The notes under the pieces: generated by a model
Database searches by the model: none
What the model saw: only the letters and a program-made list of their open reading frames with translations
Told to the model about the DNA's origin: nothing
Program-made: the position numbers and the translations under genes
Part shown: piece after piece, positions 3,352-60,743 of the stretch
How positions within the stretch are numbered: the first letter of the stretch is position 1
Layout: every line of letters begins with the position of its first letter
Virus record (IMG/VR): IMGVR_UViG_3300023109_002988
Span: 1-64,000 of that record
Length of the DNA stretch: 64,000 nt
Source of the DNA: a virus
Reading direction: 5' to 3' (one strand)

Positions 3352-3352
3352 A

Positions 3353-3927: not shown

Positions 3928-3932
3928 CTTTT

Positions 3933-23600: not shown

Positions 23601-26600
23601 GTTTTGGAAAAATCAGAGGGGTCTTTAGCTGAGAGAAATAAAGCGGCTAATGAGTTTATCTTGCTAAAAGAAAAAGAAATAGCGTTGATAGGCGCCGCCG
23701 ACACAGCCACAAAAATACAACTAGAATATGAATATCAAATAAACCTTGAAATTCTAGAGTTGAGAAAACAGATAGCTGAAGCTGGAAATACTGAAGAATC
23801 TGCTGAGTTGGCAAAGCAGATAGAAGAACTTGAGAAAAGAAAAGGAAATCCAGATCCAGGCACTAAGATTAAGAAATTAAGCATAGATGGTGAGACAGCA
23901 GCCAACAGGATGATGGACGCCGCTATTGAAGGAGCAGATCAATTTATAAATACAATATCTGATGGATTGGTTGATGCCATATCTAAAGGAGAGAGTCTTG
24001 GGGATGTACTAAGAGGCGCTGCTGACGACTTCCTTGATAAGATGGCAAAACAGGCAGTTAATAATGTCATAAGGCAAGGTATCGGAATAATTGCTCAGGG
24101 GTTTGGTGCTCCTGTTACAAGAGCCGAAGGAGGAATGATTTCTGGCGGATCTGGAATGAAAGATGATGTTCCAGCCCTGCTCATGGGAGGAGAGTACGTC
24201 ATGAAGAAAAGCGCTGTACAGAAGTACGGGCCAAACTTCATGGATCAATTAAACGGAGGCAAGCTTCCTGGTTATGCTGAAGGTGGAATGGTTCAAGATT
24301 TCAGAACGAAGTCTGGATCTATCGCGTCAAAGTGGACACCGAGATCAGACCAAGATGACGTTGATATAGATGATAAAGTCCCCGATCGCAAAATGAGAAC
24401 TAAGAGCGGAACCCAGGCTTCGCTATGGACTTCGTTGTCGAGCTTGGACAAGGTAAAAGATTCCGAGCTGCAAGACGAAAAAGATAAGAGAACGGACTCT
24501 GGTGTTCAATCTTCGGATTGGACTAAGAAGGCCGATTTGCCCAACGTTTTGAAGTTCGCCGAAGGCGGAATGGTCCAAGATTTCAGAACAAAGTCTGGAG
24601 CTATTGCGTCAAAGTGGACACCGAGATCAGACCAAGATGACGTTGATATAGATGATAAAGTCCCCGATCGCAAAATGAGAACTAAGAGCGGAACCCAGGC
24701 TTCGCTATGGACTTCGTTGTCGAGCTTGGACAAGGTAAAAGATTCCGAGCTGCAAGACGAAAAAGATAAGAGAACGGACTCTGGTGTTCAATCTTCGGAT
24801 TGGACTAAGAAGGCCGATTTGCCCAACGTTTTGAAGTTCGCCGAAGGCGGAATGGTCCAAGATTTCAGAACAAAGTCTGGAGTTATCGCTTCTAACTGGA
24901 CGCCAAAATCGGACGATGATAATGTAGACAGAAAAGACAAAATTCCTGGTCGCAAGATTAGATCTGAAAGCGGAACTGAAGCATCTACTTGGACATCTTC
25001 ATCAAGTTTAGATAAGGCTAAAGATTCTGAGTATCAAGACGAGAAAGAAAAGAGGACTGAGTCTGGTGTTCAATCTTCTAATTGGACTGAAGAAGCAAAT
25101 TTACCTGATGTTCTTAGGTTTTCTGAAAAAACTTCGCCATTAAGCAGATATAAAGAATACAGAATGAGTCAAGACGAAGAAGCTAGAGAGCGATCTTCAG
25201 TGTTGTCCTCTGACTGGAATCCTAAATCTAACAAAAAAGGTGAAGACGACAAGGATTCGGATTCTATGCACGAAGTTCAAAACTTCGCCGAGGGTGGAAT
25301 AGTAGGAATGGTCCAGTCTTTCAGAACAAAGTCTGGAGCTATCGCGTCAAAGTGGACACCGAGATCAGATCAAGATGATGTCGATATAGATGATAAAGTT
25401 CCCGATCGTAAAATGAGAACCAAGAGCGGAACTCAGGCTTCGCTGTGGACCGCATTGTCGAGCTTGGACAAGGTAAAGGATTCCGAGCTGGAAGACGAAA
25501 AAGATAAGAGAACGGACTCTGGTGTTCAATCTTCAGATTGGACTAAGAAGGCCGATCTGCCTAACGTTTTGAAATTTGCTTTAGGAGGCATGATAAGCGG
25601 AGGATCTGCCATGAAGGATGATGTTCCTGCATTATTGATGGGCGGAGAATACGTAATGAAGAAAAGTGCTGTCCAAAAATATGGACCAAACTTCATGGAT
25701 CAGATAAACGGCGGAAAGCTTCCTGGTTACGCTTTAGGAGGTATGATAAGCGGAGGTTCTGGGATGAAGGATGATGTTCCAGCAGTATTAATGGGTGGCG
25801 AATACGTCATGAAGAAAAGCGCTGTCCAAAAATATGGACCAAACTTCATGGATCAGATAAACGGCGGAAAGCTTCCTGGTTACGCTGAAGGTGGGGTTGT
25901 ATCCAATACATTAAGAACTGAGTCAGGAGTCAAATCTTCTAATTGGACTCAAGAGGCTAACGAAGGGCGAGTTCCAGAAAGTTCAAAAACTCCGAAAGGA
26001 AATGTTAGAACAGATTCTGGCTTATTAGCTTCTTCTTGGACAAGTTTGGCTAATTACGCAAAAGCACAAAAAACAGAATTATCTAATAATTTAGAAGAAC
26101 GAAATGAATCTGGACTACTTTCTTCTAGATGGACTCCAAAAGCTGATAAATACACGCAAATAGATGCAACTACTGGCAGGAGTAAATACGCCCCTTCGGC
26201 AATAAAAGCAGAGGAAAAAGAAGAAAGAACAGATTCTGGGGTAAAGCCATCTAGATGGACTAGAGAAGCAGATTACACTAAAGTAAACAATGTAGCTAGC
26301 CTTACGAAAGAGAAGTATAGAAACGAATCTGGTTTAGAAGCTTCTAGATGGACTAGAGAAGCTAGTTTTGATAAAGTTCAAAATAAAAAAGATTCTTCTG
26401 ATGCTTTATTTAGAGCCAACTCGGGATTAATAACTTCTGATTGGACAAGATCGGCATCTATAGACAAAGCTAGTGGTAACACAGCAAAAACATCCCTACA
26501 ACAAACCATAGATGATAGGATCAAACAATACACAGAAAAATCTGTACCTGAAAATATAGGAAGAGGTAAATTGATGAGTCAGAATGCTGTACCTTCAATG

Positions 26601-27757: not shown

Positions 27758-28603
27758 ATGAATAATATTATTTTGGGCCATGAGTCTTTTGTTCTGTTGG
27801 ATGGTATTCATTTAACAGGCGTTGATTCTGTATCAATTTCGTCAAGAAACAATAATTCTATTGATAGCCCATTGGGTACAGAAATGGGGTTGACAACCCC
27901 ATCTTCACCCACCGATCAGTCTATGACATTATCTAGAAAATTAATGTACAAAGATCCAATTTACCAAATTTTAGGCAAGGACAAAACCTTACAGGGTCAA
28001 ATACATGACATTAATGACAATTCTTATTATGGGTTTGAAAGCGGATATATAAGAAGCTATTCAATCAATTGTGCTGTAGGCCAATTACCTAAAGTAAATA
28101 CAAGTTTGGGTATTTTAGATGAAATTTCAACCGATATAAACAGACAAAAAAATGGTCAACCAAGAAATCGCCCCAGAAAGAAAACTCACCCAGATATAGA
28201 TAGTCCATCTCAAAAAAATATTTATATAACATCAGAAGATTTTAAGGACAACAGAATTGTTGGTTTTGATTTTTCAGTATCTTTAGACCACAAAGTTTAT
28301 TATGGTATAGGATCTACATCCCCATACGCAATAGAGCAAAAAAGACCTATAAAATATTCCGCTTCTGTTCAGCTGGAATTAGGTAAAACATACAACACTC
28401 AGACTTTTGATTTCTTAGATTCAAGACAGAACAAAGATGTGTCTATAGATATAGAGGGTAGAAACGGAACTAAATTAAATAATATAAAAATACCAAATGC
28501 AAGTTTAGTGGGTAGGAATTTGAGCCAATCGCAAAAAGGATCAGTAGTTATGAGTTTGTCTTATGTTGGTCATTTAGGGGGAGACAGGATCTTTTTACCT
28601 TAA
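27758..28603 (+). CDS. Tail-tube-fold protein at the tail tip (distal tail candidate)
   Basis: This 281-residue protein aligns over much of its length with the two tube paralogs: GYIRSYSINCAVGQLPKV matches their NAFLTDYTLDLSVGSLP segment, and the last 100 residues (YSASVQLELG, then SVVMSLSYVGHLGG) match their C-terminal domain. It lies two bases after the tape measure gene, where distal tail or first tip-ring proteins are coded. I infer that it caps the tube. It is shorter than the tube paralogs, with an Arg/Lys-rich loop around 130-150. Confidence 0.7.
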   Translation: MNNIILGHESFVLLDGIHLTGVDSVSISSRNNNSIDSPLGTEMGLTTPSSPTDQSMTLSRKLMYKDPIYQILGKDKTLQGQIHDINDNSYYGFESGYIRSYSINCAVGQLPKVNTSLGILDEISTDINRQKNGQPRNRPRKKTHPDIDSPSQKNIYITSEDFKDNRIVGFDFSVSLDHKVYYGIGSTSPYAIEQKRPIKYSASVQLELGKTYNTQTFDFLDSRQNKDVSIDIEGRNGTKLNNIKIPNASLVGRNLSQSQKGSVVMSLSYVGHLGGDRIFLP

Positions 28604-28639: not shown

Positions 28640-30487
28640 ATGGCTTATGTTAAAATAGAGGACGAAGAGTTAATTTATGACAGGACTAGAAACTTTTCTG
28701 GCATATCTTACTTTGAGGAAGTTAGTGAGATATCTTGTCCTACAAAAGGGTCTAGTGTAGAATTTTTAGCCAAAGATAAGGCTTTAACTACCAATCACAA
28801 TTATTTAAATATAACTCCTGTAGGCATTAATAATTTATACGCCAATTTTAATATGGTTTATGAAGTTGATGAGGAGGAAGCTGCTAAACTAGCTAACTTT
28901 CTAGAAGAAAAAAGGGGTATCGAGCCTGTTTTTTTTGATTCTGATCCAACTATATATAGGAAAATAAATGGTTTTTGTAATCAATATAGCATTAACCAAT
29001 TAGACGCTTCTACTTATAAGATATCTGCGCAATTTGAAATAACAGAATCTCCTGGAAGTTTTAATTGGACTGGATTAAATTTTTTAGATCCAGATTATGA
29101 AAGTTTATATTACGAGCAGGAAAATAGGGAGTATTCAAAGTATGATGTAGTTTACGATCAGAGGCTCGAGTTTAAATACCAGGACAAGATAAATAATTTT
29201 TATTATTGTCTTGAAGGACACAACTCTTCAGCTGATGCATCTATAAATCTCGAGGAAAGCCCTTATTGGACTAAAGATTTCTTCTGGCAACCAGATGTTG
29301 GTCAAACTAATTCTGTAAAGTTTGACGTTCAAAGATTTGGAGATAAGGATGGTTTTCCTTTGAGGAGAAAGATAAAATATAATACAGCATCTTTCCCGAT
29401 TTCTTATAATTTTACAAAAATAACCACCAAGCAGCTAAAGAGTATGCTCCACTTCCTGGAAAATTTAGGTGGCTATAGAAGATTTAAACATCAAATACCA
29501 TCTGTATACAATAGACCTAAGGTTTTTGTTTGCAGAAAATGGGTTCATACATGGAACAGTTTTGACTCTCACGATTTACAGGTGTTTTTTGATGAAGATC
29601 CACTAGGAATAATTCCAGACAGATCTCTTCATAATACCGAGACTCTTTCTACTAGAATTTTTGATGGTGATTCAAATTTAATTGATCAAATTCAAGGCGA
29701 TATACCTGATTATTGGGCAAACATGGATCCAGAACTTCACCAATTAAAAATTGGAGCTGGTTGCGAAACAATAGGAGAGTATGCATTTGCAGGAGCTGTA
29801 AACCTAAGGGGTGATTTGATCATACCTGGGAATGTAAAAACTATAGAAAATAATGCATTTGATAGTTGCGCTTCTTTTAATGGATCTTTATTGTTGGGTG
29901 GGGGCTTATCTTACGTGGGGGATGAAGCATTCAAAGATTGTAGTGATCTTATCGAAGACCTTTTGGTTCCTCCAAACACCAGATATATCGGGGACAAAGC
30001 CTTCTTCGGTTGTAGCAATCTAGATGGGGCTCTTTCCTTAGGGAAGATTTTAAGTCATATTGGAACTGGCGCTTTTCAAGGTTGTGTTAAACTTAACTCT
30101 AAGTTAGTTATACCAAGTACATTAAAGACAATATCTGAAAGAGCATTCAGGGGATGTTTTAAATTGAACGGCGACTTAGAAATACCATCTGGAGTTGAAA
30201 ATATTGAAGAGCAAGCTTTTTTTAATTGCCGTAAATTGGGTACAGATGTAATCATACCGCCAACTATAAAAACAATAAAAAATAATGCATTTTATGGATG
30301 TAAATACGTGTATAATGTTTATATAAATGCTCCAGTAGCGCCAACAATATATGGGGATCCGTTTCCAACTGCAAACATGGAAAAACTGAAGAGAATTCAT
30401 GTACCTTTGCAAGCAGCTGGTTATAATGATCCTTATTGGTTGGCCAAAAGGGACGAGGGAAAATTAGTATTTGACATTACACTCTAA
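28640..30487 (+). CDS. Tail tip protein with C-terminal BspA-type LRR solenoid
   Basis: The 615-residue protein has an N-terminal part (about 1-345) with two similar helix-plus-strand elements (AAKLANFLEEKRGIEPVFF and LKSMLHFLENLGGYRRFKH), as in duplicated tail-tip proteins. A junction GDIPDYW near 352 leads into about eight LRR_5 repeats of 23-24 residues (about 374-565) of the form IGxxAFxxCxxLxGxLxIP. A C-cap with IHVPLQAAGY and PYW closes the array. LRR_5 proteins typically bind surfaces. It is the simplest of three LRR tail genes in a row, three bases before the next. Confidence 0.82.
   Translation: MAYVKIEDEELIYDRTRNFSGISYFEEVSEISCPTKGSSVEFLAKDKALTTNHNYLNITPVGINNLYANFNMVYEVDEEEAAKLANFLEEKRGIEPVFFDSDPTIYRKINGFCNQYSINQLDASTYKISAQFEITESPGSFNWTGLNFLDPDYESLYYEQENREYSKYDVVYDQRLEFKYQDKINNFYYCLEGHNSSADASINLEESPYWTKDFFWQPDVGQTNSVKFDVQRFGDKDGFPLRRKIKYNTASFPISYNFTKITTKQLKSMLHFLENLGGYRRFKHQIPSVYNRPKVFVCRKWVHTWNSFDSHDLQVFFDEDPLGIIPDRSLHNTETLSTRIFDGDSNLIDQIQGDIPDYWANMDPELHQLKIGAGCETIGEYAFAGAVNLRGDLIIPGNVKTIENNAFDSCASFNGSLLLGGGLSYVGDEAFKDCSDLIEDLLVPPNTRYIGDKAFFGCSNLDGALSLGKILSHIGTGAFQGCVKLNSKLVIPSTLKTISERAFRGCFKLNGDLEIPSGVENIEEQAFFNCRKLGTDVIIPPTIKTIKNNAFYGCKYVYNVYINAPVAPTIYGDPFPTANMEKLKRIHVPLQAAGYNDPYWLAKRDEGKLVFDITL
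29760..30340 (+). repeat. LRR_5 array, eight units
   Basis: About eight 69-72-base units encode leucine-rich repeats with conserved Ile-Gly, Ala-Phe and Cys positions. The DNA copies are diverged; the repeat is clear only in protein. Confidence 0.88.
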
Positions 30488-30489: not shown

Positions 30490-33400
30490 ATGAGCCAAAG
30501 GATAACATTAAATAGCGCTAATTCAGCAATTATAATATCAGATTCCCCTGCTTTTAAAACTCAAAATGAGTCTAGTTTTGTTTTTGCTGGGGTGCAATCT
30601 TTATCTTATGGTTTTAACAACGTAAGAGCTGATACCAGCCAAATAGGTTCTCAAGCTTTTGATGATAAAAATATAATAAGGCAGCCAGATGTTAAATTGC
30701 AAATGAGCTACAGCTTTAGCCCCACTTTTGCCAATGAGGAACTAATGGGGTTAACTTATAACCTAGATGCTAAATCTAAATTTTCAGTTATTAAAGGTTT
30801 ATCTGATTCTTCTTATAATTTTTATGTTTACAATCATCCAGAGCAAGAGCAAGACGCTTTGGAATATATAAAAGATGGCGTATCTCCAAATGGAGGGGAA
30901 GTTGTTTCAATTGGCAATGCATATTTAACTAATTATAATATGACATTCACGCTAGGATCTATCCCAAGTGTAGATGTTGAATTCGATTGTTCTAATATAA
31001 AAACTGAAAATTATACATCTGCCTTTATAGAAAGTCCAGCCATAAATTTGGAATCTGGTAACAATATTGGAGTAGGGTCTATAAATATATTAGACACCAA
31101 TTATTACGAAAGATCAAAATTTGGAGATATTTATAATCTAGATAGAACAAGAATAGAGACCATATTACCTAAGGATATAAATTTTCAAATGGATAATTTA
31201 TCCATAGGAGGTCAAAAACTAGAACTAGAAAACCATAGAATAAACCAGTTTTCTATAAGTTTACCTATTAACAGATCAAATGCATATAAGCTTGGTTCTG
31301 ATTATGTGTGCAGTAGAAAACTAAATTACCCAATAGACGGAAGACTGTCTATATCATCTTTAGTTACTAATTTAGAGGCTGGATTTATAAGTGGACTTGT
31401 TAAGGGTGATCAGATATCAAATCTGAAAATTATATCTTCAGATTGCGAAAAGAAAGTGTCTTCCCAATTTTATTTCGAGGATATAAAGTTGGAAAATGTA
31501 GAATATCAAACACTGGTAAATGAACAGACAAACTATAATCTTGAGTTTTCATTTCAAATAACAGATGAAAAAGGATTTAAGACCGCAGTAACAGAGCAGG
31601 ATATAGATGCAACTAGGTTTATAGATGATGAAAATAAAGTTTATGAATACATTCAAGGGGATGTTATTGAGGGTTGGCAGTCTGGAGATTTGGGCGGCTA
31701 CAAAATAGCTTTTGCAGAAATTAAAAACTTCGACGTTTTGGAGGCTGCTTTTTCTGGATGCACAAATATAGATAAGCCTGTATTTTTGTCTCCGCAAATA
31801 AACGTTATTGAGGATGATGTTTTCCATGGATGCACAAACCTGCCTGATTTTTATTCCGATTCTGCTTGTAGAGTACAAGTTTTTGGGGAAAGGTCCTTTA
31901 AGAATTGTTCTTCTTTAGAAGAAATAGTTTTACCTATAAGTATAAAAGAAATAAAAGAAGAGTCTTTCATGGGTTGCTTTTCTGCTAAAGATTTATTTTT
32001 AGCGGATGTAGAAACCGTTGGTGAGAGAGCTTTTTATAATTGTTACGGACTTTCTGAGAATTTATATTTGCCGAATTCTTTGCTTACTCTAGGTGAAAGC
32101 GCTTTTGAAAATTGCAGCGGAATGGAGGGAGGCTTGTTTATAGGGGGATCTCTTACAAGAATAGAAGATAAAACCTTCAAGAATGCAAAACTTTTTTCTT
32201 TTGATCTAGAAATACCAGACAATATAACAAGCATAGGTCACGAAGCTTTTTATGGGTGCGATGGTTTTGATGGGGAGTTAATTTTAAGCTCTGAGCTATC
32301 AAAAATAGAATCTTACTCATTCTATGGATGCAGTTCTTTAACTGGTTATTTAAACATACCAGAAAATGTAATCGAAATAGAAGACTCCGCTTTTGAAAGC
32401 TGCTCTGGTTTTAATAAAGAAATATTACTGCCTGGAGTTGAAATAATAGGTGATAATGCTTTTTCTGGATGCTCCAGCTTAACTGGAAAAGTTAACTTTG
32501 CTTCTGGAATTTCAACTATAGGAGATAATGCATTTATGAATTGTAGTTCATTTGGATATGCTCTTAACATACCAAGCGGAATACAATCTATAGGAGATAG
32601 ATCATTCTCTGGTTGCGTAGGAATACAAGACGCGTATGTTAATTTTGCCGCAACCGTATTCCAGGGCCAAGATGCTTTTGCTGGCATAAAGGGATGCATG
32701 TATGTGACGCCTTTCCATTATAATGCTTACAAACAATTATCTGTAGATGGGTATTTCCAGGGAATGCCTGTTTGTTATGGGTCTATAGATACAATAGTTT
32801 TTGACGCTAATACAGCAGAAATAATAAAATTTAAAAGAGGTGATATACCTACTAATTGGTACTCTAATCAAAGCAGAGCTTCCTTGTTAGTGATAGGGTC
32901 GACCTGTAAAAATATAGAACCAGGAGCTTTTGATGGTAGTGATGGATTGGAGGGTCTTTTTGTTATTCCAGATGAACTTGAAACAATAGGTGATTTCGCT
33001 TTTAGAGGGTGTAATTTTGAAGGTGAGTTGTTAATACCAGATACTATAAAATATTTGGGAAGTGGAGCTTTCGAGGATTGCACTGGTTTTAATGATTTTC
33101 TATTGATAGGAGACGGTATAGATACCATAAAAGGCAAGACTTTTAAAAACTGCTCAAACATAAATAGTGATATAATCATAGGTAGTGAAATTATATCTAT
33201 CGAAGATGAGGCTTTTTATAATTGCACTGGTATATCTGGAGATATTTCTCTTGGATTCTCCGTGTCATACATTGGTGATTACGCTTTTTATAATTGCAAA
33301 AATGCGGTTGGGGATTTAGAAATACCAGAAGATGTTACTTATGTTGGAGATTTTGCTTTTTATAATTGTTCCAGCTTGGATGGAGACTTTATAACTGCAG

Positions 33401-36400
33401 AAGCAATAAGCATTGCTTATATAGGAAATTCTGCTTTTGAGGATTGTTCTTTAATGAGTGGCCCTCTTGTAATGCCAGCTTCTGTGACTTATATAGGAAG
33501 CGGCGCATTCAAAAACTGCAGAGGATTAAATTCAGAAATTGATTTGACTTTAACTCAGATAAATGAGATAAATTATCAATCATTTTTTGGTTGTTCTGGT
33601 CTTGTAGGATCATTGGTTATACCAGATTCTGTTCAGTACATAGGAGACGAAGCTTTTCTTGGGTGTTCATCTTTGAGCGAGAGTATTACAATAACAAATA
33701 TAGCAGCCAGAAATATAGGTAATAACGCTTTTGACTCACCAATACAATTCCAAGAATTAATAATTAGCGATTCTGTGGGTGAGGTACGTCAATATGAATT
33801 TGATTATTTTAAAAATGATCCTTTGTATTTGACAATGCAGGAAGGATTGACTGGAATTAATGAATACTCTTTTTCTAACTACGCTTTTATTGGTGATCTT
33901 GATATACCATTGACATTAAAGTATGTAGGGGATGCGGCTTTTTCTGGATGCGAGTTCGGGGGTACGTATATTTTTGAAGATTCCAATATTGAATATATTG
34001 GAGATTATGCATTTTACGATCTAGATTTAATTGACGGAAATATAATTGTTCCAAATGTAGACTATGTAGGAAAAGGAGCTTTCTTTAACAACTCTTCTAT
34101 TGACGGCTATATTACTTTTGGAGAAGTGATTTCAAGTATAGGGGAATATGCTTTCGCTAACTGCTCGAGCGCAATAGGTGATTTAACAATACCAGATAAT
34201 GTAAGCAATTTGGGGCAGTATGCATTTTTAAATTGTTCTTCTTTAAGTGGTACGCTGACCCTTCCTAATAATGAAGAGTTTAATATTATAAAAACTGGAA
34301 CTTTTAAAAATTGCTCTCTTTTAAGCGGAGATCTTTTGATTCACGATTATATATCTGGCATAGAACAAGAAGCATTTTTGGGTTGCAGTGGTCTTACTGG
34401 AGATATAACAATCACAGACGTTTGCGCTTCGACTTTGGTTGGATCAAATACATTTGACGACTCCCCCTTCTCTAGATTGATAATTAGTGATTCTGTAGTT
34501 CAGATAAATAATACTGAGTTTGATTACTTTGCATCAAGACAGATGGAAGTTGTATTTGGAAAAGGGTTGAGTGGAATTTTAGATGGAGCATTTGATAATT
34601 ACAATTTTGTAAGTGAATTAAACTTACCTTTATCGCTTACTGGTATCGGGGTAAGCGCTTTTGAGAATTGCAACGGTCTTTATGGTAATTTAATCATACC
34701 AAATAATGTCTCTGGAATAGGTGAGGACGCATTTAGATCATGCAGTAATCTTTCTGGCAATTTAATTTTGCCTAGTAGAATAGAGAATATTGGTGATGGA
34801 GCTTTTGTAGATTGTGTTAAATTAGATGGATATATAAGAATATCAGACCTAACAGCCTCTTCTATCTCATCTTACCCTAATGTTTTTGGAGGCACTAACT
34901 TCAAAGAGTTAAGGGCAACTTCATCAGATTTAATAATAGAAAATACAGAATTTGATTCTTTCAATGCTTTTGTAGGCGCGTTGCTTTTGGAGCCATCTGT
35001 ATTAGATGTAGGGCCATATGCATTTGTAGATAACTTCTCGTTTGCTGATACGTTAACAATAAGCGAGAATTCAGAAAGAATTGATGACTATGCATTTTCT
35101 GGTAATAGTTTTATTGGAGATCTTGATATAAATTCTGAATTCATAGGGTATGCTTCATTCGCAGATTGTAGTAGTTTCGACGGTAGGTTTACAATCAATA
35201 CTGCGACACTAAATGAAGTAGGTGATTACGCTTTTTATAACTGCTCTAATCTTAGTGGCGATTTAATAGTGGGTGAGGTTTTGAGTGGAATTGGAGAATA
35301 TTCATTTTCAAACATGAGCAGTTTGGATGGAGAGTTTGCTCTTTGTCAATTGCCTGAAGATTTTGATGGTCAGCTCTCCAAATACGAACCAACAATAGGT
35401 GAATCAGGGGTTCTTACATTTGAATTCGAAGAGTATGTAGAGACATCATTGAAGTATTTTGGTGACTATGCATTTGCAAACAATTCGAACCTATCTGGGA
35501 ACTTAGTAATACCAGATACAACTACATCTTGGGGAGAATATGCATTTTTAAACATGTCTTCCTTGGATGGATTCTTGATATTAGGAAGTGGAGTTAATAG
35601 TATACCAGAGGGAATATTTAAGAATTGCTCTGGTTTAAATTGTTATGATGGTTTATTTAAGATACCAGAAAATGTTTCATTTATAGGTGCTGAAGCTTTT
35701 TATAACTGTTCTTCTTTGGACTGCGTATTAAGGTTGAAGCCTGGGGTAACTACTTTAACGGACGCTTTCTTTGGAACTAACTTTGATAAGTTGTTAGTGC
35801 CATCAGGAACAGTTGCTATTTTGGATGGTGATTATGACGCACTTCAAAACCTCGATATAAAATTGGGATTTGAGTCTCCAGATTCAGCATTTAGAACATT
35901 GGGAGATCTTGCTTTTGATAATTATCAGCTAACAGGAACATTGGTTTTACCAGAGTCTACGGATTACATAGGGTCTTCTGGGTTTTTAAATTGCGACTTG
36001 CTAAGTGGATCATTTTCCGTTCCTTCTTCTGTAAAAGTTATAGGTAATAGTGCGTTTAGAAACTGTTCTGGTTTTGATGGAGAATTCTCGTTAGTTAATT
36101 TACCAAGTTCATATAATGGAGAAAGTGATTTAGATGTGGCTTTATCAGGCATAGGAGAATACGCTTTTGCAAATTGTCAAAATTGGACAGGGAACATAGT
36201 GATTCCAGATGGTGTTAATTACGGAAAGTACAGTTTCCTTAATAACAAATCTCTTGACGGGTTTTTGATTCTTAATCAAACTTTAGAAGTTATACCAGAA
36301 GGAGCCTTTAAGAACTGCGAACAAATAACTCGTTTTGAGGGTGAAACCTTCACGATACCAAGAGTTGTAACAACAATAGAAGATGAAGCTTTTTACAATT

Positions 36401-39400
36401 GCCAAAACTTGCTTGATAGCGATATTAAGATAGGAGCGGGACTAACAATAGGGGCAAACGCTTTCTTTGGTGAGGATTTTAACGATTTGATTGTCCCTAA
36501 TTATGAGGAAGTAATAATAGACGGAGACTACGAATATTTTAAAACTTTATCTATTGGACTAAAGTTCGAAAGTGTTTCTAGTGTTTCTGGTATAGGGGAT
36601 AGAACGTTTTTAGATTATAGATTGACAGGGTCTTTGAGTTTACCGCAATCATTGATAAGTATTGGATCTTCTGGATTTAAAAATTGCGACTTGCTAAGTG
36701 GATCATTTTCCGTTCCTTCTTCTGTGGAGGTTATAGGCGACAGCGCCTTTAGAAACTGTTCTGGTTTTGATGGAGAATTCTCATTAGTTGATTTACCGTT
36801 ACCTTATAATGGACAAAGTGATTTAGATGTGGCTTTGTCAGGAATAGGAGAATACGCTTTTGCGAATTGTGAAAATTGGACAGGAAATTTGGTAATTCCA
36901 GATGGAGCTACTTACGGAAAGTACAGTTTCCTTAATAACAAATCTCTTGACGGGTTTTTGATTCTTAATCAAACTTCAGAAGTTATACCAGAAGGAACCT
37001 TTAAGAACTGCGAACAAATAACTCGTTTTGAGGGTGAAACCTTCACGATACCAAGATCTGTAACAACAATAGGAGATGACGCTTTTTACAATTGCCAAAA
37101 CTTGCTTGATAGCGATATTAAGATAGGAGCGGGACTAACAATAGGGGCAAACGCTTTCTTTGGTGAGGATTTCGATGATTTGATTATTCCTAATTACGAG
37201 GAAGTAATAATAGATGGAGACTACGAATATTTTAAAACTTTATCTATTGGACTAAAGTTCGAAAGTGTTTCTAGTGTTTCTGGAATAGGAGATAAGGCGT
37301 TTTTAGATTATAGATTCACAGGGTCTTTGAGTTTACCGCAATCATTGAAAAGTGTTGGATCTTCTGGATTTAAAAATTGCGATCTGTTTAGCGGTGATTT
37401 GTTTTTACTTCGAACTGAAATAATAAAAGATAATGCTTTTGAGAATTGTTCTGGGTTTGATGGAGATTTATTTATTGGTTCGCCAACGGAAAGCATAGGA
37501 GTTAATGCTTTCACGAACTGTAGTAGTTTTAAAGGATCAATTGATCTACCAAACTCATGCACAACATTAGGAGAAGAAGCTTTTCTTAACTGCTCTGGAT
37601 TTGATAGTGTTATAGATGTAGGTAATGGTATAGAATATTTAGAAGACAGGACTTTTAAAAATTGTCAATCTGCTTCTGGTCATTTATATTTATCGGAAAA
37701 TGTTACTGGAATAGGTAATTCTGTCTTTGAGAATTGTTTTAAGTTAAATAGAAATGGAAACCTGCTTGAAATACCACGTTCTGTAGATTACATAGGAGAT
37801 AAAGCGTTCTTTAACTGTAATGATCTTCTTGTAGGAGAGCTTAGGATAAAAGGGTCTCTCGACATAGGAGTGGATGCTTTTGAGCCATTTAACTTTGGGA
37901 TACTAGGCGTTCCAGATTATCAGACTTACATCAACTCGGGAGATTATTCTTATTTTAAAGATAAGACTTTTCAGCTTAGTTTTGAAAACTATAATAGTTC
38001 ATACCTCGGAACAGAACATATAAGCGGAAAGGCTTTTTCTGGTTATAATCTAACTGGAACTTTAAACTTGCCAAGAAAGCTCCGAGAGATTGGCGATCAC
38101 GCTTTTGTTAATTCTACTGGTTTGTCAGGTGATCTTACTTTTTTAAGTCAATTAAGAATAATAGGAGATGGAGCTTTCCAAAATTGTTCTGGATTTGATG
38201 GAAAATTATTTATTGGTTCATCAATAGACAGCATAGGAGTTAATGCTTTTACTAACTGTAGTAGTTTCACAGGGTCAATTGATATACCTAATTCATGCAC
38301 AACATTAGGAGAAGAAGCTTTTCTTAACTGCTCTGGATTTGATGGGAATATAGATATAGGCAACGGCCTTAAATATTTAGAAGACAGGACTTTTAAAAAT
38401 TGTCAATCTGCTTCTGGAGTCTTGGATCTTCCACTTAATATCTCTGGTATAGGAAATTCTGTATTCGAGAAATGTTACAAATTAAAAAGCAAAATTACAG
38501 ACATCTTAGAAATACCACGTTATGTAGATTATATAGGAGACGAAGCCTTTTATCAATGCTTTAGTCTTCTTCAAGGAACACTGAGGATAAGAGGTGGTGT
38601 TGACATAGGGATAAATTCTTTTGAGCCATTTGGTTTTGAAAATTTGAGCGTTCCTGATTATCAGGTTTCTATAGATTCTGGAGATTACTTATATTTTAAA
38701 GATAAAGCTTTTCAGCTTACTTTTGAAAATAGTAATTCTTTAGCATGCAAAACAAGAGACATATATGAAAAAGCTTTTTCTGGATATAACTTATTTGGAA
38801 CATTAAATTTACCTATAGGACTTAAGGAGGTTGGTGATTATGCCTTTATTAATTCTACTGGTTTGACAGGTGATCTTTATCTTAATAAATATTTAGAAAC
38901 AGTGGGGGAAAGAGCTTTTGAAAACTGTTCTGGCTTTGATGGAGAATTCTCCTTAGCTCCTCTACCATATTGGTTTGAAGGAAGTCCAAATTTTGGTAAT
39001 ACTGTCCAGTTAGAAACCATAGGCGACTACGCTTTTGCTAACTGCGAGAACTGGTCTGGTAATTTAGTTATTCCAAATGGAGTATCTTATGGTGAATATT
39101 GTTTCTTGAATAATAGCTCCCTGAATGGTTTCTTGATATTAAATGAAACACTTAATAGGATACCAGAAGGAGCATTCAAAGACTGTTCTAAACTCACATG
39201 CTATAATGGAGTATTTAAAATACCAGAAGTTGTAAGTTTAATCGAAAGATACGCTTTCCAAAATTGTTCTGGTCTTGATTGTGACCTTCAAATAGGACCA
39301 GACGCCAGCATAGGAACACAAGCATTTGAAGGTACTGATTTCAAGGGCTTAGTTATACCTTCTTTTCTACAGGAGGTTCAATATCAAGATTATGATTATT

Positions 39401-42400
39401 TCAAACAAGATATAATAACTCTTAAATTTGAAAATTATAATTCACTATCTAATACTAGAAATATCGGAAGTGGAGCATTTGCTGATTATAATTTTAGTGG
39501 CGAATTAAATCTACCTATTTCATTAACAGGTATAGGTGATAATGCTTTTAATCAAAACGATTTACTTGAGGGTCCATTGAGTATACCATCTAACGTAAGG
39601 GAAATAGGATCTGGAGCTTTTGAAAATTGTAGTGGTTTTTATGGTGATTTCTCATTCCCTAAAACTGTAATAAGCATAGGGGCAAAAGCTTTTAAGAATT
39701 GCGAAAATTTAGTTGGTACGCCTGAATTTTTTATAACTACTGAAACTATAGGAGATGAAGCATTTGCTAATTGCCTTAGTTTAAATGGAACAATGGAACT
39801 ACCACCAAATATTACAAGTATTGGTAGTGGAGCTTTTCTTAATGCTATAGGCATAGATGGGGTTACAATAATTTCATTGCCAAGCGACGTATTTAAGGGT
39901 GAGAATGCTTTTTCTGGAGTTGGGGGTGTTCTAGAATTGTCTCCGTTAGTATATCAGGATTACTTGCAAAATAGTGATTTGATAAATGGGGACTATTATT
40001 TCCAGGGAATAAAGATAACTGGACAGATAACTGACGACACTGTGTTTTACATAAGTGTCGATTCGAACGAAAATAATAAGTACCAAGATCCTTTTGATGG
40101 TACATTGACATCACAAAACTTTCAATCTTACGCTATTCCAAACAACTGGAAAGAAGGGATACCAAATGACCCAAAATATGGTGGACTAGATTCACGAAAT
40201 CAAAATTGTTGGTTAGAAATAGGTGGTTTATGCGACAGTGTTACAACAGGAGCATTTAAAAATAGAAAATTCTTAAGAGGCGATGTCTTTTTCCCAAGTT
40301 CTGTAGACAGTATTGATGATGAGGCTTTCTTAAACTGCGAAAGGTTAGAAGGATTAACATTTGCTTCTTACGGATTGAGAGATATTGAAAATGATGCTTT
40401 TTATAATTGTAAACAAGTCACTAGCGATATAAATCTGCCAGAAACAATAGAAAATATAAAACCAGATGCTTTTAAGTATATGTATAGAGCTGGAAACCTA
40501 ATCTTGAATGGAACTTCATTAACTGGAATTAGCGGTGGAACTTTTCATAGTTTCGGAGATGCAGCTTTAAATAAAACATTTAAACTAAATGAGGGTCTGT
40601 TAAATATCGAAGCCCTTGGTTTTTATCAGGCTGGAGGGATAGGTGCTTCTTTAGAATTGCCAAGTACATTAGAGACCATTGGTTACCAAGCTTTTTACTC
40701 TTTCGGTGGGGCTACTAATACCCTTAATGCCCGTGGTGAATTAAAAGGTATTAATCAATCTTCATCTTTGTCGAATATAGAAAATAGAGCATTTGAAGAA
40801 TCAAACGTTACTGGTCATATAGTATTTCCAACGTCATTGCCACATATAAAATATAGGGCTTTTTACGGCTCGAAGATAACTAGCGTATCTGGATTTGATC
40901 ATATGGATTATATAGGTGAAAGCGCATTCGCTAGAGATACTAGAAACGCAACAAATCTTAGAATGGATAATTTAGTTATACCAGAAAAACCTTATTTGTC
41001 TAGGAGATGCTTTTCTAGCCATCAATATGTAAAATATATTACTCTTGAAGGACAAAGAGACGATTCAGATATAGACTGGCGAGGCCAACAATTCCATGGA
41101 TACAACAATGGTTACCTGTTCAGTGATCTGACAGGTTTTAACGCAAGTGGAACTAATTATTTTGCACATAGTATGTTCGGTTCTAACCACAACGTTATGA
41201 TTGAAGATAATTTCTCACCGAATTTGAGCGGTATTGACCAGAACGCTTTTTATTTTTGCAGTTATCGTGGTTTTTATAACGGCACTTCTCCATCTAGACC
41301 ACCTTCAATAATTAATTTGCCTAGCGGTGTTGTGTCAATTGACAATGGTGCTTTTCAAAATAATAAATGGACTAATCAATTAAATTTTTCAGGAGCTGAA
41401 TCTGGATTGATTATAGGTGATAATGCTTTTGAAAATTGTGGAACCGTTTGGCAATATGCCGCGTATAGTACATTTCGGGAATACGGCCCAAGAAATTATA
41501 ATAATATTTATTGGGGTCACGATGAGATAGACATAACTGGAGAATTTATTATTCCTAGCGGATTAAACTATTTGGGTAAAAGCGCTTTCAGAGGGATAAG
41601 AGGTAGAAATTTAGATATTATTTTTAGCGATGACTTTACTGGGAGTAGAACCGACCTGCAAATTATAAATGCTTATGATAATAATTATAGAGACAGAAAC
41701 ACGCTAGGGACAAAAGATTATTGTTTTTACGGTAGTCAGTTGAGAAAATTAAAATTATCTCAATCTATGGAAACTATTGATAATTACATGTTTTCATTTT
41801 TTACTATAATGGATCATAACAATTTTGATTCTCCGTTAGGAGTTAAGGAATTTGGAATAGAGTCTTTCATACGTTTTAATTGTGAGTCAGGGGATGGTAA
41901 GTTTACCTTTGAGTTCGGATCTGGATTGAACCGTTTAGGGAAAAAATCTTTTGCTACCTATGGTTTGCCAGAAGATCCCGTTTTTCAAGGAAAAGTAGTA
42001 CCAAATCATACTTACTCTGGAGAATATATAGAGCACAGATGTATAGAGGCGTTTGATTTCTCTAGAGTAAGTGGAGCTGTCGATTTTGAAGAAGCATGTT
42101 TTAGCAGAACATGGGCTGAAGGAACTATGACATTGCCAGAAGTTAATAGTCTTGGTCAAGGTGTATTTTTCGGAGCAAGTAGACTTGAGTCTGTTGTGTT
42201 CCAAAGCTCACCAAACTTAACAACCTTGGCTGATTCAACATTTTCAAATTTAGCTAAATTAACTGGAGTAATCTTTAATAATGAACTTACATCGATAGGT
42301 AGTAATGTTTTCGAAAGTTGCCCATCTTTAATTGACTTTGATATTTCTAATACAGATATAGTAAGTCTAGGTAGCGAAATGTTTAAAGATGCCTTTAATT

Positions 42401-43671
42401 TAACTAATGTTAATCTATATAATGGAAAGCTTACAACATTGGGAAATAGAGTCTTTGAAAATTGTACTAGTATCGACGATCTCTATATACCAAATTCAGT
42501 AACAACGGTTGGTAGTAATTTATTTTTAAATGCAAACATAAATATATTAGACTACGATGTTAATACTAGCGTTTTAGATCCATTCTTGTTTAACGGGGCT
42601 ACTATAGGCGATTTATCCTTACCCCAAACGACCATAGTAGTTAAAGAAGGTGTATTCCAAAATGCAATATTTGGACCAGATCCTTTTGATGGATTGCCTA
42701 ATGGAGTGGTTACCTTTGAAGATAGTGTGTTTAAGCAAACACCTTTAAGTGGTATATTTATTCCTTCATCACTTAGCGGTTTAGCGAACACTACATTCAA
42801 AGACTCACCCAACCTTACTGGTTTAGACTTTTCTTCGTGTAGTTCACTTACTGGAATTGGAAATGAAAACTTCATGAATTGTGATTCTATCACAGGTATT
42901 GTTTTACCTAATTCTTTACAGATTATTGGGGATGGCAACTTTAAGAATCTTGATTTAATAGAAGAAATAGTTTTCCCAACATCTTTAGAATACATCGGAG
43001 ATGAAAACTTTAAAAATTGTTCTGGCTTGTCTATTGTTGATTTGTCTAATACAAATTTAATAGAAATGGGGAACAGAAACTTTATAGAAGATACAAATTT
43101 AAAAACTATACTTGATCTTAATTTACCAGATAGTTTGCAAGTGATTGGTGATGAAAACTTCAAAGAAATTAATCTTAACAGTTTAAAGCTTCCTACTGGA
43201 TTGAGGGTTCTTGGGGATTCTAATTTTTACGATTGCGAATCTTCGGATCAAACGATTTGGGGAGAAGGAGATCCTCCTGTGTTTAGTCTGCCAAGCGGGA
43301 TTGAAAGTATAGGTAATTCAAATTGGGAGAGATCAGACGCAATACAAAGACTTAGGATAGATGAAGGTTTTTCTGGTTCGATAGGAAATTTAAACTGGAA
43401 TTTATGTAATCAAATAAGTCAGCTTCTTATAAAAACAACAGATTCTAATTTTTCAATAGGCGATAAAAATTTCACAGACTTAAATTTATTGGGTGTAATT
43501 CAAATTGATTGCCCAGCATCTTGTTGGCAAGGAACAGGTAATTTCGACAAATCTAAAACAGATATGGTAATTTATGTTAATTCAACTTATGCGGCTGGTT
43601 ATAATGCAACCTGGAGTGGAGATCAAGCAGTGCCAAATGGAGCTACAATAATAACTTACGACCCTCAATAA
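30490..43671 (+). CDS. Giant tail protein: tube-like N-domain plus three LRR_5 solenoids (4393 residues)
   Basis: Residues 1 to about 360 form a diverged member of the tail-tube family (QSLSYGFNNVRADTSQIG; GNAYLTNYNMTFTLGSIP; KLGSDYVCSRKLNYPIDG). The rest is three LRR_5 solenoids, each opened by a cap with a conserved Trp (GDVIEGW, GDIPTNW, AIPNNW); solenoids 1 and 2 end in a Tyr-containing cap. Solenoid 1 covers about 380-765, solenoid 2 about 768-3173, solenoid 3 about 3174-4393. Units are 23-24 residues; I estimate around 150. Solenoid 2 shows longer super-repeats marked by DYxYFK or EFDYF. No signal peptide or membrane segment is seen. The likely role is a long adhesive arm on the tail tip; the gene alone fills a fifth of the window. 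Confidence 0.85.
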   Translation: MSQRITLNSANSAIIISDSPAFKTQNESSFVFAGVQSLSYGFNNVRADTSQIGSQAFDDKNIIRQPDVKLQMSYSFSPTFANEELMGLTYNLDAKSKFSVIKGLSDSSYNFYVYNHPEQEQDALEYIKDGVSPNGGEVVSIGNAYLTNYNMTFTLGSIPSVDVEFDCSNIKTENYTSAFIESPAINLESGNNIGVGSINILDTNYYERSKFGDIYNLDRTRIETILPKDINFQMDNLSIGGQKLELENHRINQFSISLPINRSNAYKLGSDYVCSRKLNYPIDGRLSISSLVTNLEAGFISGLVKGDQISNLKIISSDCEKKVSSQFYFEDIKLENVEYQTLVNEQTNYNLEFSFQITDEKGFKTAVTEQDIDATRFIDDENKVYEYIQGDVIEGWQSGDLGGYKIAFAEIKNFDVLEAAFSGCTNIDKPVFLSPQINVIEDDVFHGCTNLPDFYSDSACRVQVFGERSFKNCSSLEEIVLPISIKEIKEESFMGCFSAKDLFLADVETVGERAFYNCYGLSENLYLPNSLLTLGESAFENCSGMEGGLFIGGSLTRIEDKTFKNAKLFSFDLEIPDNITSIGHEAFYGCDGFDGELILSSELSKIESYSFYGCSSLTGYLNIPENVIEIEDSAFESCSGFNKEILLPGVEIIGDNAFSGCSSLTGKVNFASGISTIGDNAFMNCSSFGYALNIPSGIQSIGDRSFSGCVGIQDAYVNFAATVFQGQDAFAGIKGCMYVTPFHYNAYKQLSVDGYFQGMPVCYGSIDTIVFDANTAEIIKFKRGDIPTNWYSNQSRASLLVIGSTCKNIEPGAFDGSDGLEGLFVIPDELETIGDFAFRGCNFEGELLIPDTIKYLGSGAFEDCTGFNDFLLIGDGIDTIKGKTFKNCSNINSDIIIGSEIISIEDEAFYNCTGISGDISLGFSVSYIGDYAFYNCKNAVGDLEIPEDVTYVGDFAFYNCSSLDGDFITAEAISIAYIGNSAFEDCSLMSGPLVMPASVTYIGSGAFKNCRGLNSEIDLTLTQINEINYQSFFGCSGLVGSLVIPDSVQYIGDEAFLGCSSLSESITITNIAARNIGNNAFDSPIQFQELIISDSVGEVRQYEFDYFKNDPLYLTMQEGLTGINEYSFSNYAFIGDLDIPLTLKYVGDAAFSGCEFGGTYIFEDSNIEYIGDYAFYDLDLIDGNIIVPNVDYVGKGAFFNNSSIDGYITFGEVISSIGEYAFANCSSAIGDLTIPDNVSNLGQYAFLNCSSLSGTLTLPNNEEFNIIKTGTFKNCSLLSGDLLIHDYISGIEQEAFLGCSGLTGDITITDVCASTLVGSNTFDDSPFSRLIISDSVVQINNTEFDYFASRQMEVVFGKGLSGILDGAFDNYNFVSELNLPLSLTGIGVSAFENCNGLYGNLIIPNNVSGIGEDAFRSCSNLSGNLILPSRIENIGDGAFVDCVKLDGYIRISDLTASSISSYPNVFGGTNFKELRATSSDLIIENTEFDSFNAFVGALLLEPSVLDVGPYAFVDNFSFADTLTISENSERIDDYAFSGNSFIGDLDINSEFIGYASFADCSSFDGRFTINTATLNEVGDYAFYNCSNLSGDLIVGEVLSGIGEYSFSNMSSLDGEFALCQLPEDFDGQLSKYEPTIGESGVLTFEFEEYVETSLKYFGDYAFANNSNLSGNLVIPDTTTSWGEYAFLNMSSLDGFLILGSGVNSIPEGIFKNCSGLNCYDGLFKIPENVSFIGAEAFYNCSSLDCVLRLKPGVTTLTDAFFGTNFDKLLVPSGTVAILDGDYDALQNLDIKLGFESPDSAFRTLGDLAFDNYQLTGTLVLPESTDYIGSSGFLNCDLLSGSFSVPSSVKVIGNSAFRNCSGFDGEFSLVNLPSSYNGESDLDVALSGIGEYAFANCQNWTGNIVIPDGVNYGKYSFLNNKSLDGFLILNQTLEVIPEGAFKNCEQITRFEGETFTIPRVVTTIEDEAFYNCQNLLDSDIKIGAGLTIGANAFFGEDFNDLIVPNYEEVIIDGDYEYFKTLSIGLKFESVSSVSGIGDRTFLDYRLTGSLSLPQSLISIGSSGFKNCDLLSGSFSVPSSVEVIGDSAFRNCSGFDGEFSLVDLPLPYNGQSDLDVALSGIGEYAFANCENWTGNLVIPDGATYGKYSFLNNKSLDGFLILNQTSEVIPEGTFKNCEQITRFEGETFTIPRSVTTIGDDAFYNCQNLLDSDIKIGAGLTIGANAFFGEDFDDLIIPNYEEVIIDGDYEYFKTLSIGLKFESVSSVSGIGDKAFLDYRFTGSLSLPQSLKSVGSSGFKNCDLFSGDLFLLRTEIIKDNAFENCSGFDGDLFIGSPTESIGVNAFTNCSSFKGSIDLPNSCTTLGEEAFLNCSGFDSVIDVGNGIEYLEDRTFKNCQSASGHLYLSENVTGIGNSVFENCFKLNRNGNLLEIPRSVDYIGDKAFFNCNDLLVGELRIKGSLDIGVDAFEPFNFGILGVPDYQTYINSGDYSYFKDKTFQLSFENYNSSYLGTEHISGKAFSGYNLTGTLNLPRKLREIGDHAFVNSTGLSGDLTFLSQLRIIGDGAFQNCSGFDGKLFIGSSIDSIGVNAFTNCSSFTGSIDIPNSCTTLGEEAFLNCSGFDGNIDIGNGLKYLEDRTFKNCQSASGVLDLPLNISGIGNSVFEKCYKLKSKITDILEIPRYVDYIGDEAFYQCFSLLQGTLRIRGGVDIGINSFEPFGFENLSVPDYQVSIDSGDYLYFKDKAFQLTFENSNSLACKTRDIYEKAFSGYNLFGTLNLPIGLKEVGDYAFINSTGLTGDLYLNKYLETVGERAFENCSGFDGEFSLAPLPYWFEGSPNFGNTVQLETIGDYAFANCENWSGNLVIPNGVSYGEYCFLNNSSLNGFLILNETLNRIPEGAFKDCSKLTCYNGVFKIPEVVSLIERYAFQNCSGLDCDLQIGPDASIGTQAFEGTDFKGLVIPSFLQEVQYQDYDYFKQDIITLKFENYNSLSNTRNIGSGAFADYNFSGELNLPISLTGIGDNAFNQNDLLEGPLSIPSNVREIGSGAFENCSGFYGDFSFPKTVISIGAKAFKNCENLVGTPEFFITTETIGDEAFANCLSLNGTMELPPNITSIGSGAFLNAIGIDGVTIISLPSDVFKGENAFSGVGGVLELSPLVYQDYLQNSDLINGDYYFQGIKITGQITDDTVFYISVDSNENNKYQDPFDGTLTSQNFQSYAIPNNWKEGIPNDPKYGGLDSRNQNCWLEIGGLCDSVTTGAFKNRKFLRGDVFFPSSVDSIDDEAFLNCERLEGLTFASYGLRDIENDAFYNCKQVTSDINLPETIENIKPDAFKYMYRAGNLILNGTSLTGISGGTFHSFGDAALNKTFKLNEGLLNIEALGFYQAGGIGASLELPSTLETIGYQAFYSFGGATNTLNARGELKGINQSSSLSNIENRAFEESNVTGHIVFPTSLPHIKYRAFYGSKITSVSGFDHMDYIGESAFARDTRNATNLRMDNLVIPEKPYLSRRCFSSHQYVKYITLEGQRDDSDIDWRGQQFHGYNNGYLFSDLTGFNASGTNYFAHSMFGSNHNVMIEDNFSPNLSGIDQNAFYFCSYRGFYNGTSPSRPPSIINLPSGVVSIDNGAFQNNKWTNQLNFSGAESGLIIGDNAFENCGTVWQYAAYSTFREYGPRNYNNIYWGHDEIDITGEFIIPSGLNYLGKSAFRGIRGRNLDIIFSDDFTGSRTDLQIINAYDNNYRDRNTLGTKDYCFYGSQLRKLKLSQSMETIDNYMFSFFTIMDHNNFDSPLGVKEFGIESFIRFNCESGDGKFTFEFGSGLNRLGKKSFATYGLPEDPVFQGKVVPNHTYSGEYIEHRCIEAFDFSRVSGAVDFEEACFSRTWAEGTMTLPEVNSLGQGVFFGASRLESVVFQSSPNLTTLADSTFSNLAKLTGVIFNNELTSIGSNVFESCPSLIDFDISNTDIVSLGSEMFKDAFNLTNVNLYNGKLTTLGNRVFENCTSIDDLYIPNSVTTVGSNLFLNANINILDYDVNTSVLDPFLFNGATIGDLSLPQTTIVVKEGVFQNAIFGPDPFDGLPNGVVTFEDSVFKQTPLSGIFIPSSLSGLANTTFKDSPNLTGLDFSSCSSLTGIGNENFMNCDSITGIVLPNSLQIIGDGNFKNLDLIEEIVFPTSLEYIGDENFKNCSGLSIVDLSNTNLIEMGNRNFIEDTNLKTILDLNLPDSLQVIGDENFKEINLNSLKLPTGLRVLGDSNFYDCESSDQTIWGEGDPPVFSLPSGIESIGNSNWERSDAIQRLRIDEGFSGSIGNLNWNLCNQISQLLIKTTDSNFSIGDKNFTDLNLLGVIQIDCPASCWQGTGNFDKSKTDMVIYVNSTYAAGYNATWSGDQAVPNGATIITYDPQ
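35991..37376 (+). repeat. Two 693-base super-repeats (231 residues each)
   Basis: The segment starting TTGCGACTTGCTAAGTGGAT at 35991 recurs at 36684, and its equivalent again at 37377, exactly 693 bases apart each time. The copies are nearly identical for long stretches, for example around KYSFLNNKSLDGFLILNQT. This is a recent in-frame tandem duplication inside the giant LRR gene. Confidence 0.93.
37561..39036 (+). repeat. Pair of 738-741-base super-repeats (about 246 residues each)
   Basis: The segment starting ACAACATTAGGAGAAGAAGC at 37561 recurs at 38299. Further landmarks (ATACCACGT at 37771 and 38512) are 741 bases apart, so one codon was gained or lost. The copies are more diverged than the 693-base pair. 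Confidence 0.88.
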
Positions 43672-43673: not shown

Positions 43674-46600
43674 ATGCCAAGAAACAGAACTATATATCAA
43701 TCTGAATCAGTTTTCGTTAGTAACAACTTAGATTCTACTGACGTTTGGGAACACGCTGAAGTAGCAAGAATACAAGAAGCTAGTTATGGTTTTTCCATGA
43801 ATAAAACAGATGTCAATCAGTATGGAAAAAGCAGTAGAATAGATCATATAAATTTAGAACTGCCTACTGTTAATTTTGACATGTCTTACTTATTGGGTAA
43901 TGGTTACAATGAGTCCGTTTTAGGTTTTGATATTAAAGAAGGTTATCAATTTGCAAAATATCATTTAGAAAATAATAGTGGCAAAAATTTCTACGTATTA
44001 ATTTCTGAAGAAGGTCTTGATTCAAAATCTTTAGAAGTCGGAGATCCTTATACTTTAATAGGTATAGGTAATGCTTTTTTGACAAACTATTCTGTAGATA
44101 TGTCTGTAGGTTCTTTGGCTAAAGTTAACCTGCAATACGAATGCTCAAATATAAATTCAATTCACGGTGTTGTAGAAGGTGAAGGCTTTTGGCTTACGCA
44201 GCTAAGTGGGGATAGTGCATCTATAAATATAGACAAAGGAATACCTTACGATAAGAAAATAAAAATTACTGCACCTAAAGGTGATATAGAAAATATACCT
44301 ACTGCATTAAGACCTGGCGACATAACAATAAATTTTGAAGGTTTTGATTCTGAAAATTTATCGACCATTAGTGGTAATGGTTCTTTCCATTTACAAAGCG
44401 CCAACTTATCTATTCCATTGTCTAGATCTGAACTAAAAAGATTAGGTTCGAAAGGCTCGTATGCAAGAGTTCTTGATTATCCTATAAAGGCTACTTTAAG
44501 TGTAAACTCTATAGTTAGCAATATTGAGGTTGTAGATCTTGCTGAATCTGTAAGAGGTTGTATAAACAACTCTTTGAATAATGATATATCTATATTGGCT
44601 AAGGATTGCAATAAAGAAAATGCTATTATATGGAGGCTCAAAAATCCTGATTTGTTATCAGAAAATTTCTCTTCTAATATTGGGCCAAACAAATCTGTTG
44701 ATCTTACTTTTGAGGTTGAAATAGGCAATCCAGATGATAACTCCATAGGAATACTTTGCAGTGGAGCTTCAGATAGAGATAATGAAGAAAGAGAAGACGA
44801 CAACGATTACTATCCAACCAGAGTCTACGGCTATGATTATACTGGATCCGCTGCTGCTCTCGAGGAGGGAGTCTTTACTGGCGAAAGCAACATACTTTTA
44901 GACTGGCAAACTGGTGATGTAATTGAAGAATGGAAGTATAATCGATTGTTCACCCCATGGCGAGTCCCTAAATGGGGAAATTTAGATTTCATAAAAAGAA
45001 TTGCTCCTGGAGGGTCTACTGAATATATTGGTGATGACGCTTTTCGAAACATAAAGGCAACAGGAGAATTGTATTTAACAAAGAATCTTACTGGTATTGG
45101 AACGAGCGTTTTTGAAAACACAAATATTGATTATCTTGTGGTTGGAGACGGACTTCCAAAACTTCCGAGTAGATCTTTTTATGACTGCGATCAATTAAAA
45201 ACAGTGAAAACGGCAGATTCTATAACAGAAATAGGAGATTCTTGTTTTGCATACAGCAACAAATTAAATGAGTTTTACTTTAGTAAAGGATTAAGCGGAA
45301 TTGGGGTTGGAGCTTTTCATACTTGTTCTTCTTTGCTAAAAGCTGATCTTTCTGGGTGTAATTATTTGCAAAGTATAAACGATAATACTTTCAACTCATG
45401 TACCTCTTTAGAAGAGGTGAGCTTATCGGATTCTATATTAACATTAGGAGATGATAGTTTTAAAAGTTGCACTTCATTAACTAATTTTAAATGGAGTTCA
45501 GGATTGGAGAGTGTGGGCGATAGATCTTTTAATGGATGCACAAGCTTGCTAGATCCTGTTTTTTATGATACTTTAGAAACAATCGGGGACGAAGCTTTTT
45601 CAACTTGTTATTCTTTTGATTCTGTTACTATACCAGGAACAGTAACATATTTTGGCGAATACGCATTTAAAACATGTGGAGTGAAAAGTTTAGTATTAAA
45701 CGAAGGCTTATCTGAAATCTCATATCAAGCTTTTTATAATTGTGCATCTTTAAAAAGTATAAGCTTTCCCGAAACTTTATTATATATAAATCCATATTGT
45801 TTTATTTATAACTATAGGTTACAAAACCTTAATATACCAGACAATGTTTCTGGAATAGGGAATCACGCATTCTATACTTGTTACTCGGCAGCTACTTCTC
45901 AGGAGTGTTTAGACGTTGTAAATTTTGGCAGCGGACTTAAGTTTATTGGGGAACAAGCTTTTTATGGCAACCAATCACTAAGATCAGCCGATTTGCCAGA
46001 AAACATAGAATCAATAGGATATAACGCTTTTTTCAACTGTGGTTTAAGCGGGTTTGTTAACCTTCCCGATTCTTTGAATTCAATAGGAATCAACGCTTTT
46101 GATAGTAATAATTATATTGAAAGCATCAATATAGGTGCTGGATTAACAACTCTTTCCAATAACTGTTTTGAAGAATGCACAAGCCTTTCAGGTGTATTTA
46201 TACCAGATTGGTTCGAAAGTCTTAATGACGGCGTATTTTTACGTTGCTATGATATAACTACAATAAGCCTGGGTAATGGTATAGAATATATAAATGACTA
46301 TGCATTTGGTGACTGTAGGTCACTGACAGGTATAGATATTCCTTCTCAAATTACTGGTATTGGAAATAGCGCTTTTCAAACTGGGCTAAATATAACTAAC
46401 GTTGGTTTCGTAGAAGGTTTGGAGTATATTGGTAACAGTGCTTTTGCAAATTGTTATTCTTTGACTGGAGTTTCATTCCCAAACACTTTGAGTGGCATTG
46501 GTTCAAGTTCGTTTTCTGCTTGTTCTGATTTAAGTGGTCAAATAATTTATACTCCGAACCTACAATCCGTGGGTGCTAGCGCTTTTCTTGGCACAGATAT

Positions 46601-57518: not shown

Positions 57519-57519
57519 A

Positions 57520-58170: not shown

Positions 58171-58175
58171 AAACA

Positions 58176-58868: not shown

Positions 58869-58872
58869 AATA

Positions 58873-60718: not shown

Positions 60719-60743
60719 ATGATTTGTTTTATTATATTTTGAT

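Follow-up and report, generated by a model that had tools for sequence, protein, structure and literature searches.

The viral DNA analysed here (the window, 64,000 nucleotides) contains a gene for a 4,393-residue protein in which a domain with the predicted fold of a tail tube is followed by a long array of leucine-rich repeats (LRRs) of the LRR_5 type. We consider it likely, short of certain, that we are dealing with a minor tail-tube paralog, built into the distal tail as a single ring and bearing its own side fibre, with LRR arms that contact the cell surface. We observed homology and a predicted fold for the N-terminal domain, the LRR arrays, the gene order, the modular movement of LRRs among relatives and a distinct pattern of selection, and it is on these that the reading is built.

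The gene (30490–43671, plus strand) is a single open frame from ATG to stop, 4,393 codons long without an internal stop, and it lies 2 bases from the preceding gene and 2 bases from the next. A Pfam search found LRR_5 (PF13306) in 35 stretches of the protein (E=0), with 1,423 bits against a curated cut-off of 27.7. Using a tiling script that kept repeats scoring >2, and that yields 1 repeat from a shuffled sequence, we recognised 126 repeats in the stretch from residue 416 to residue 4345; their spacing is mostly 23–24 aa, with 24 aa the commonest. The length of the solenoids corresponds to about 150 repeats, of which at least 126 are recognisable. Large breaks after residues 725 and 3130 bound three blocks, the third of which is itself interrupted after residue 3984 by another break, of 114 aa. 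The original prediction of some 150 BspA-type LRRs in three solenoids is borne out by these counts. Solenoid 1 (residues ~416–740, 31735–32709) was delimited by Pfam, phmmer and tiling, and its residues 418–733 match PDB entry 4fs7 in phmmer (3.3e-30). Solenoid 2 (residues ~801–3155, 32890–39954), delimited by tiling and by comparison with orthologs, is variable in length and includes a tandem super-repeat of two ~231-aa copies (35947–37359). A break at residues ~3156–3260 (39955–40269), seen as the tiling gap after residue 3130, leads to solenoid 3 and the C terminus (residues ~3261–4393, 40270–43671), the part most divergent from the ortholog in L011. All of these segments are on the plus strand. 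Orthologs on other contigs, with 72% and 84% identity over the first 401 residues, keep the frame open, and dN/dS is 0.07–0.33 throughout; on this comparative evidence the frame is neither a chance one nor an assembly artefact.

Residues 1–360 (30490–31569, plus strand) form the domain that we call tubeC. The original prediction related these residues to tube paralogs encoded in the same genome and proposed a structural comparison with tail tubes, and both ideas held up. In BLASTP, the domain matched the paralogs at 11268–12389 and 12415–13563 (E=1e-28, 28% over 343 aa), an alignment of six tube-family sequences has 39 invariant columns, and the domain falls with the paralogs in the same profile family and the same tree. 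An AlphaFold model of tubeC, made with 69 aligned family members, reached a pLDDT of 79.8 and a pTM of 0.82, and its best Foldseek match in the PDB was the SH-Ab15497 major tail protein (1.9e-12), followed by tail-tube or tail-tip chains of P74-26, T5 and DT57C. The model contains two tandem tube domains and aligns with 8xan, 8ed0, T5 and DT57C chains over 370–420 columns; the tail tubes among the best solved matches have a duplicated tube domain too. Among the fold matches is the T5-type tail-tip chain 7qg9_G (298 residues, 6.8e-11), which, judged by its length, is probably p140. The best matches are moderate, with TM-scores on the query of ~0.46–0.58. The named best matches in a BFVD fold search were tail proteins as well. 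A sequence-profile search of solved structures with the tube family gave no match, and only the fold comparison succeeded. A 787-residue model was of lower confidence (pTM 0.56) and was excluded from the PDB comparison. By sequence, tree and predicted fold, tubeC is confirmed as a duplicated tail-tube domain, within the limits of a modelled structure.

The gene sits in a tail module, in the order tape measure, 281-aa ring protein, gpM-like protein, tubeC and a second tube+LRR protein, tubeD, all on the plus strand. The tape measure protein (3351 aa, 17700–27755) was identified by its PHROG match (E 1.4e-44); in its C-terminal third (24492–26010), SGxxASxWTP-type motifs recur among repeated glycine-rich segments. 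The 281-aa ring protein (27758–28603) is a distant relative of the tube family, found by profile comparison (hhalign, 97.8% probability) where direct BLAST against tubeC gave no link. The gpM-type ring protein (615 aa, 28640–30487), identified by Pfam and alignment, combines PF05939 (E 1.9e-15, 57.6 bits, above the curated cut-off of 39) with a C-terminal LRR_5 region (E 2.6e-37). In tubeD (1569 aa, 43674–48383), assigned by homology and tree, residues 1–385 are a tube domain ~50% identical to the 11268–12389 paralog, and ~41 LRRs were recognised (LRR_5 E 1.4e-211). The 98.5-kb record also contains lambda-type J, I, K and L genes, at about 82–90 kb. This arrangement supports, as far as gene order can, a distal-tail place for the 4,393-aa protein, and it is consistent with a non-contractile tail that ends in a lambda-like tip and contains several additional tube-fold rings; no sheath gene was noticed, although sheath genes were not specifically sought. 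The two bare paralogs, A (373 aa, 11268–12389) and B (382 aa, 12415–13563), both on the minus strand, belong to the tube family, A by homology and fold. They had no PHROG match; from fold, family and gene context, without virion data, they are probable major tail proteins. The adjacent pair is opposite in strand to the tape measure and is conserved in many uncultured phages (L025–L041). Elsewhere in the record, at about 93.4–96.2 kb (L010:14408–17237), three small genes (261, 268 and 211 aa) encode LRR_5 together with a fibre-like N terminus, and short tail fibres may also use LRRs.

Scans of IMG/VR gave relatives with tubeC orthologs in the same gene order. The LRR-bearing orthologs differ greatly in length, from 4,393 aa in the window through 3,918 (L012 with L022), 3,172 (L011) and 2,072 (L015) to 1,944 aa (L019); that of L014 has 525 aa. 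Six others (L017, L018, L105, L106, L109 and L112, the last from a metagenome-assembled genome) consist of a bare tubeC of 361–390 aa without LRRs, and in L018 the LRR stretch is a separate gene directly after the bare tube domain. The counterpart of the 281-aa ring protein carries LRR arrays in L102 (2671 aa) and L105 (1733 aa), and gpM has LRRs in some relatives (615, 611 and 681 aa) and lacks them in others (309–350 aa). Because the arrays are present, absent or relocated among the ring proteins of relatives, we take the LRR array to be an optional module, found across these sequences on four different ring proteins. The original prediction had not included the like architecture of tubeD, the LRRs of gpM, the shifts of the arrays among ring proteins or the bare-domain relatives. 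In a midpoint-rooted tree, tubeC and its orthologs form their own clade with a support of 1.0, while tubeD nests in the major-tail-protein clade beside the 11268–12389 type. These separate positions imply two independent LRR captures. In L024 (9989–14466), which belongs to the same contig as L011, the tubeD ortholog is split into a 528-aa ORF with the tube domain and short LRRs and an overlapping 964-aa LRR ORF; the split could stem from a frameshift or from faulty assembly, or the two genes could be genuine.

Between the window and L012, dN/dS was 0.07 for the tube domain, 0.075 for solenoid 1, 0.08–0.28 for parts of solenoid 2 and 0.23–0.33 for solenoid 3. Comparison of the coding sequences indicates that the whole protein is under purifying selection, strongest on the tube; since dS is near or above 1 and saturated, the gradient is only qualitative. 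Identity to L011 falls from 71% in the tube to 19–37% in solenoid 3. In the indel map, the large length differences between the window and L012 lie within solenoid 2, where the tandem copies at residues ~1820–2060 and ~2051–2290 (repeat D1) are 89% identical in nucleotides and where the L012 ortholog has a shorter super-repeat or none. With a dS of 0.38 between the 231-aa copies against ~1.2 between the window and L012 orthologs, the duplication is younger than the split from L012.

Several other readings of the gene need to be weighed. A protein that is not part of the virion, acting inside the cell or secreted after acquiring a tube-like domain, would be in keeping with the two annotated gut-phage LRR genes that lie outside tail modules. 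However, almost every relative with sufficient flanking sequence has the gene in this position, directly behind those for the tape measure, the ring protein and gpM, bare tubeC orthologs occupy the same place, and tubeD descends in the tree from a tail-tube lineage, so that we regard this reading as very improbable. It is scarcely credible that the 4,393-aa protein is instead one of the main building blocks of the tube, present in many copies with LRRs coating the whole tail. Although homology does link its tube domain to the probable major tail proteins, the genome already encodes the two bare paralogs of 373 and 382 aa, conserved as a pair in many relatives; the tubeC gene follows the tape measure and adjoins tip genes; and it would be exceedingly expensive to make a 4,393-residue protein in such numbers.

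It is harder to set aside the idea that the LRR arms are a general decoration, comparable to the Ig-like domains of many tail tubes, and that they adhere weakly and without specificity to polysaccharide, mucus or particles without deciding host range. Ig-like domains fill the same outward C-terminal place on T5 pb6 and lambda gpV, and LRRs have been gained, lost and shifted between ring proteins and are absent in several relatives. Yet the very large size has been kept under purifying selection, and the C terminus diverges as expected for a tip that faces a receptor. This divergence of solenoid 3 could also reflect relaxed constraint rather than receptor adaptation. On balance decoration seems unlikely to us, without being negligible.

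If the protein is, as we favour, a minor tube paralog that forms an armed distal ring, three copies of residues 1–360 would come together in a pseudo-hexameric ring of the kind formed by T5 pb6 and p140, and the LRR chain would leave the tube surface from each subunit to give three arms per ring. TubeD would form a second arm-bearing ring, and the gpM-type ring would carry shorter arms. Solenoids 1 and 2 may serve as a spacer that changes in length over evolution through tandem duplication of blocks of ~10 repeats, with solenoid 3, presumably the outer and fastest-changing part, the most likely contact with the host surface. Attachment through the LRR arms would precede engagement of the gpJ-type tip. 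Ring position, threefold copy number and stoichiometry, arm geometry and receptor binding are all inferred, as are the long arms around the tail tip that had been predicted: the whole analysis rests on sequence and single-chain structure prediction, with no virion, microscopy, mass-spectrometry or binding data. It is tempting to speculate further that LRR arrays, independently captured by several distal ring proteins and both lengthened and remodelled by repeat duplication, form an exchangeable recognition system of tunable multi-arm receptors that replace classical trimeric tail fibres, loosely comparable with the LRR-based variable receptors of animals. We put this forward only tentatively and think it possible rather than probable.

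Among isolated phages we found no relative of the tubeC N-terminal domain or of the tail-tube paralog, and the terminase was matched only distantly; the phage therefore cannot be tied to any cultured relative or named taxon. In cellular records, relatives occurred only on contigs in metagenome-assembled genomes of several phyla, which are most likely phage contigs binned with bacteria, and we claim no host. Tail-tube-family genes also occur in contigs binned as Halobacteriovorax, Flavobacteriales, Verrucomicrobiales and others (L113–L119), probably again phage contigs without a reliable host signal. Two further loci were noted by eye from the sequence: a cluster of glycosyltransferase-, methyltransferase- and GDP-mannose dehydratase-like genes in the window (56077–61772), and DNA polymerase III alpha-like and Clp ATPase-like genes at about 68.9–73.9 kb of the record (L009:8910–13906).

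LRR_5 arrays as such are already known in phages, from PHROG families, gut phages and BFVD entries, so only the fusion to a tail ring looks new. A literature search, which was not exhaustive, turned up no account of such a fusion; the single phage paper in it that mentions a BspA-family protein gives DUF285, another type of LRR (PMC7765460). If our reading is true, phage attachment organs can be built and can evolve by a route that is new; the orthologs, from about 360 to 4,393 residues, form a natural series in which to ask how arm length affects infection; and some very large genes of uncultured phages that lack annotation gain a likely role.

Several known systems share parts of this architecture. 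The gpM-type protein of the window keeps the domain (PF05939) and the tail-gene neighbourhood of lambda gpM; unlike gpM, it has gained an LRR_5 domain in the window clade. Gut phages likewise encode LRR_5 arrays (PHROGs 35892 and 18805; PV036455 and PV036423), but in the two annotated records the genes lie among replication or nucleotide-metabolism genes, with no tail context. The BspA-type LRR_5 proteins of bacteria and trichomonads belong to the same Pfam family, and 4fs7 and 4gt6 are the closest solved chains. Those are cell-surface proteins, the setting from which this repeat class is better known, whereas here an array of over 120 repeats is fused to a phage tail-ring domain and the same module recurs on several ring proteins.

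Closer likenesses are found in tail-tube proteins. Residues 1–374 of T5 pb6 are a duplicated tube domain that forms trimeric rings and bears an outward C-terminal domain (PMC5717097). The tubeC domain is of the same size, and pb6 and lambda gpV likewise join a tube domain to an outward C-terminal module (PMC5717097, PMC8718954). Theirs is an Ig-like domain of ~85 residues as against ~4,000 LRR residues, and they are major tail proteins, whereas the 4,393-aa protein is probably a minor one. T5 p140 is a tail-tube paralog that forms a ring after the last major-tail-protein ring, between the tube and the distal tail protein; a collar surrounds this ring, with three side fibres grafted onto it, and p140 has no C-terminal decoration domain, the fibres being a separate protein, pb1, held by p132 (PMC10038345). 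Like p140, tubeC is a duplicated-domain paralog of the major tail protein encoded with the tip genes, and the 4,393-aa protein may work in the same way. We do not class it as p140 because of its LRR extension, a covalent arm of ~4,000 residues. The best-studied precedent, T5, attaches its side fibres as separate proteins through a collar, whereas the arm described here appears to grow out of the tube ring itself.
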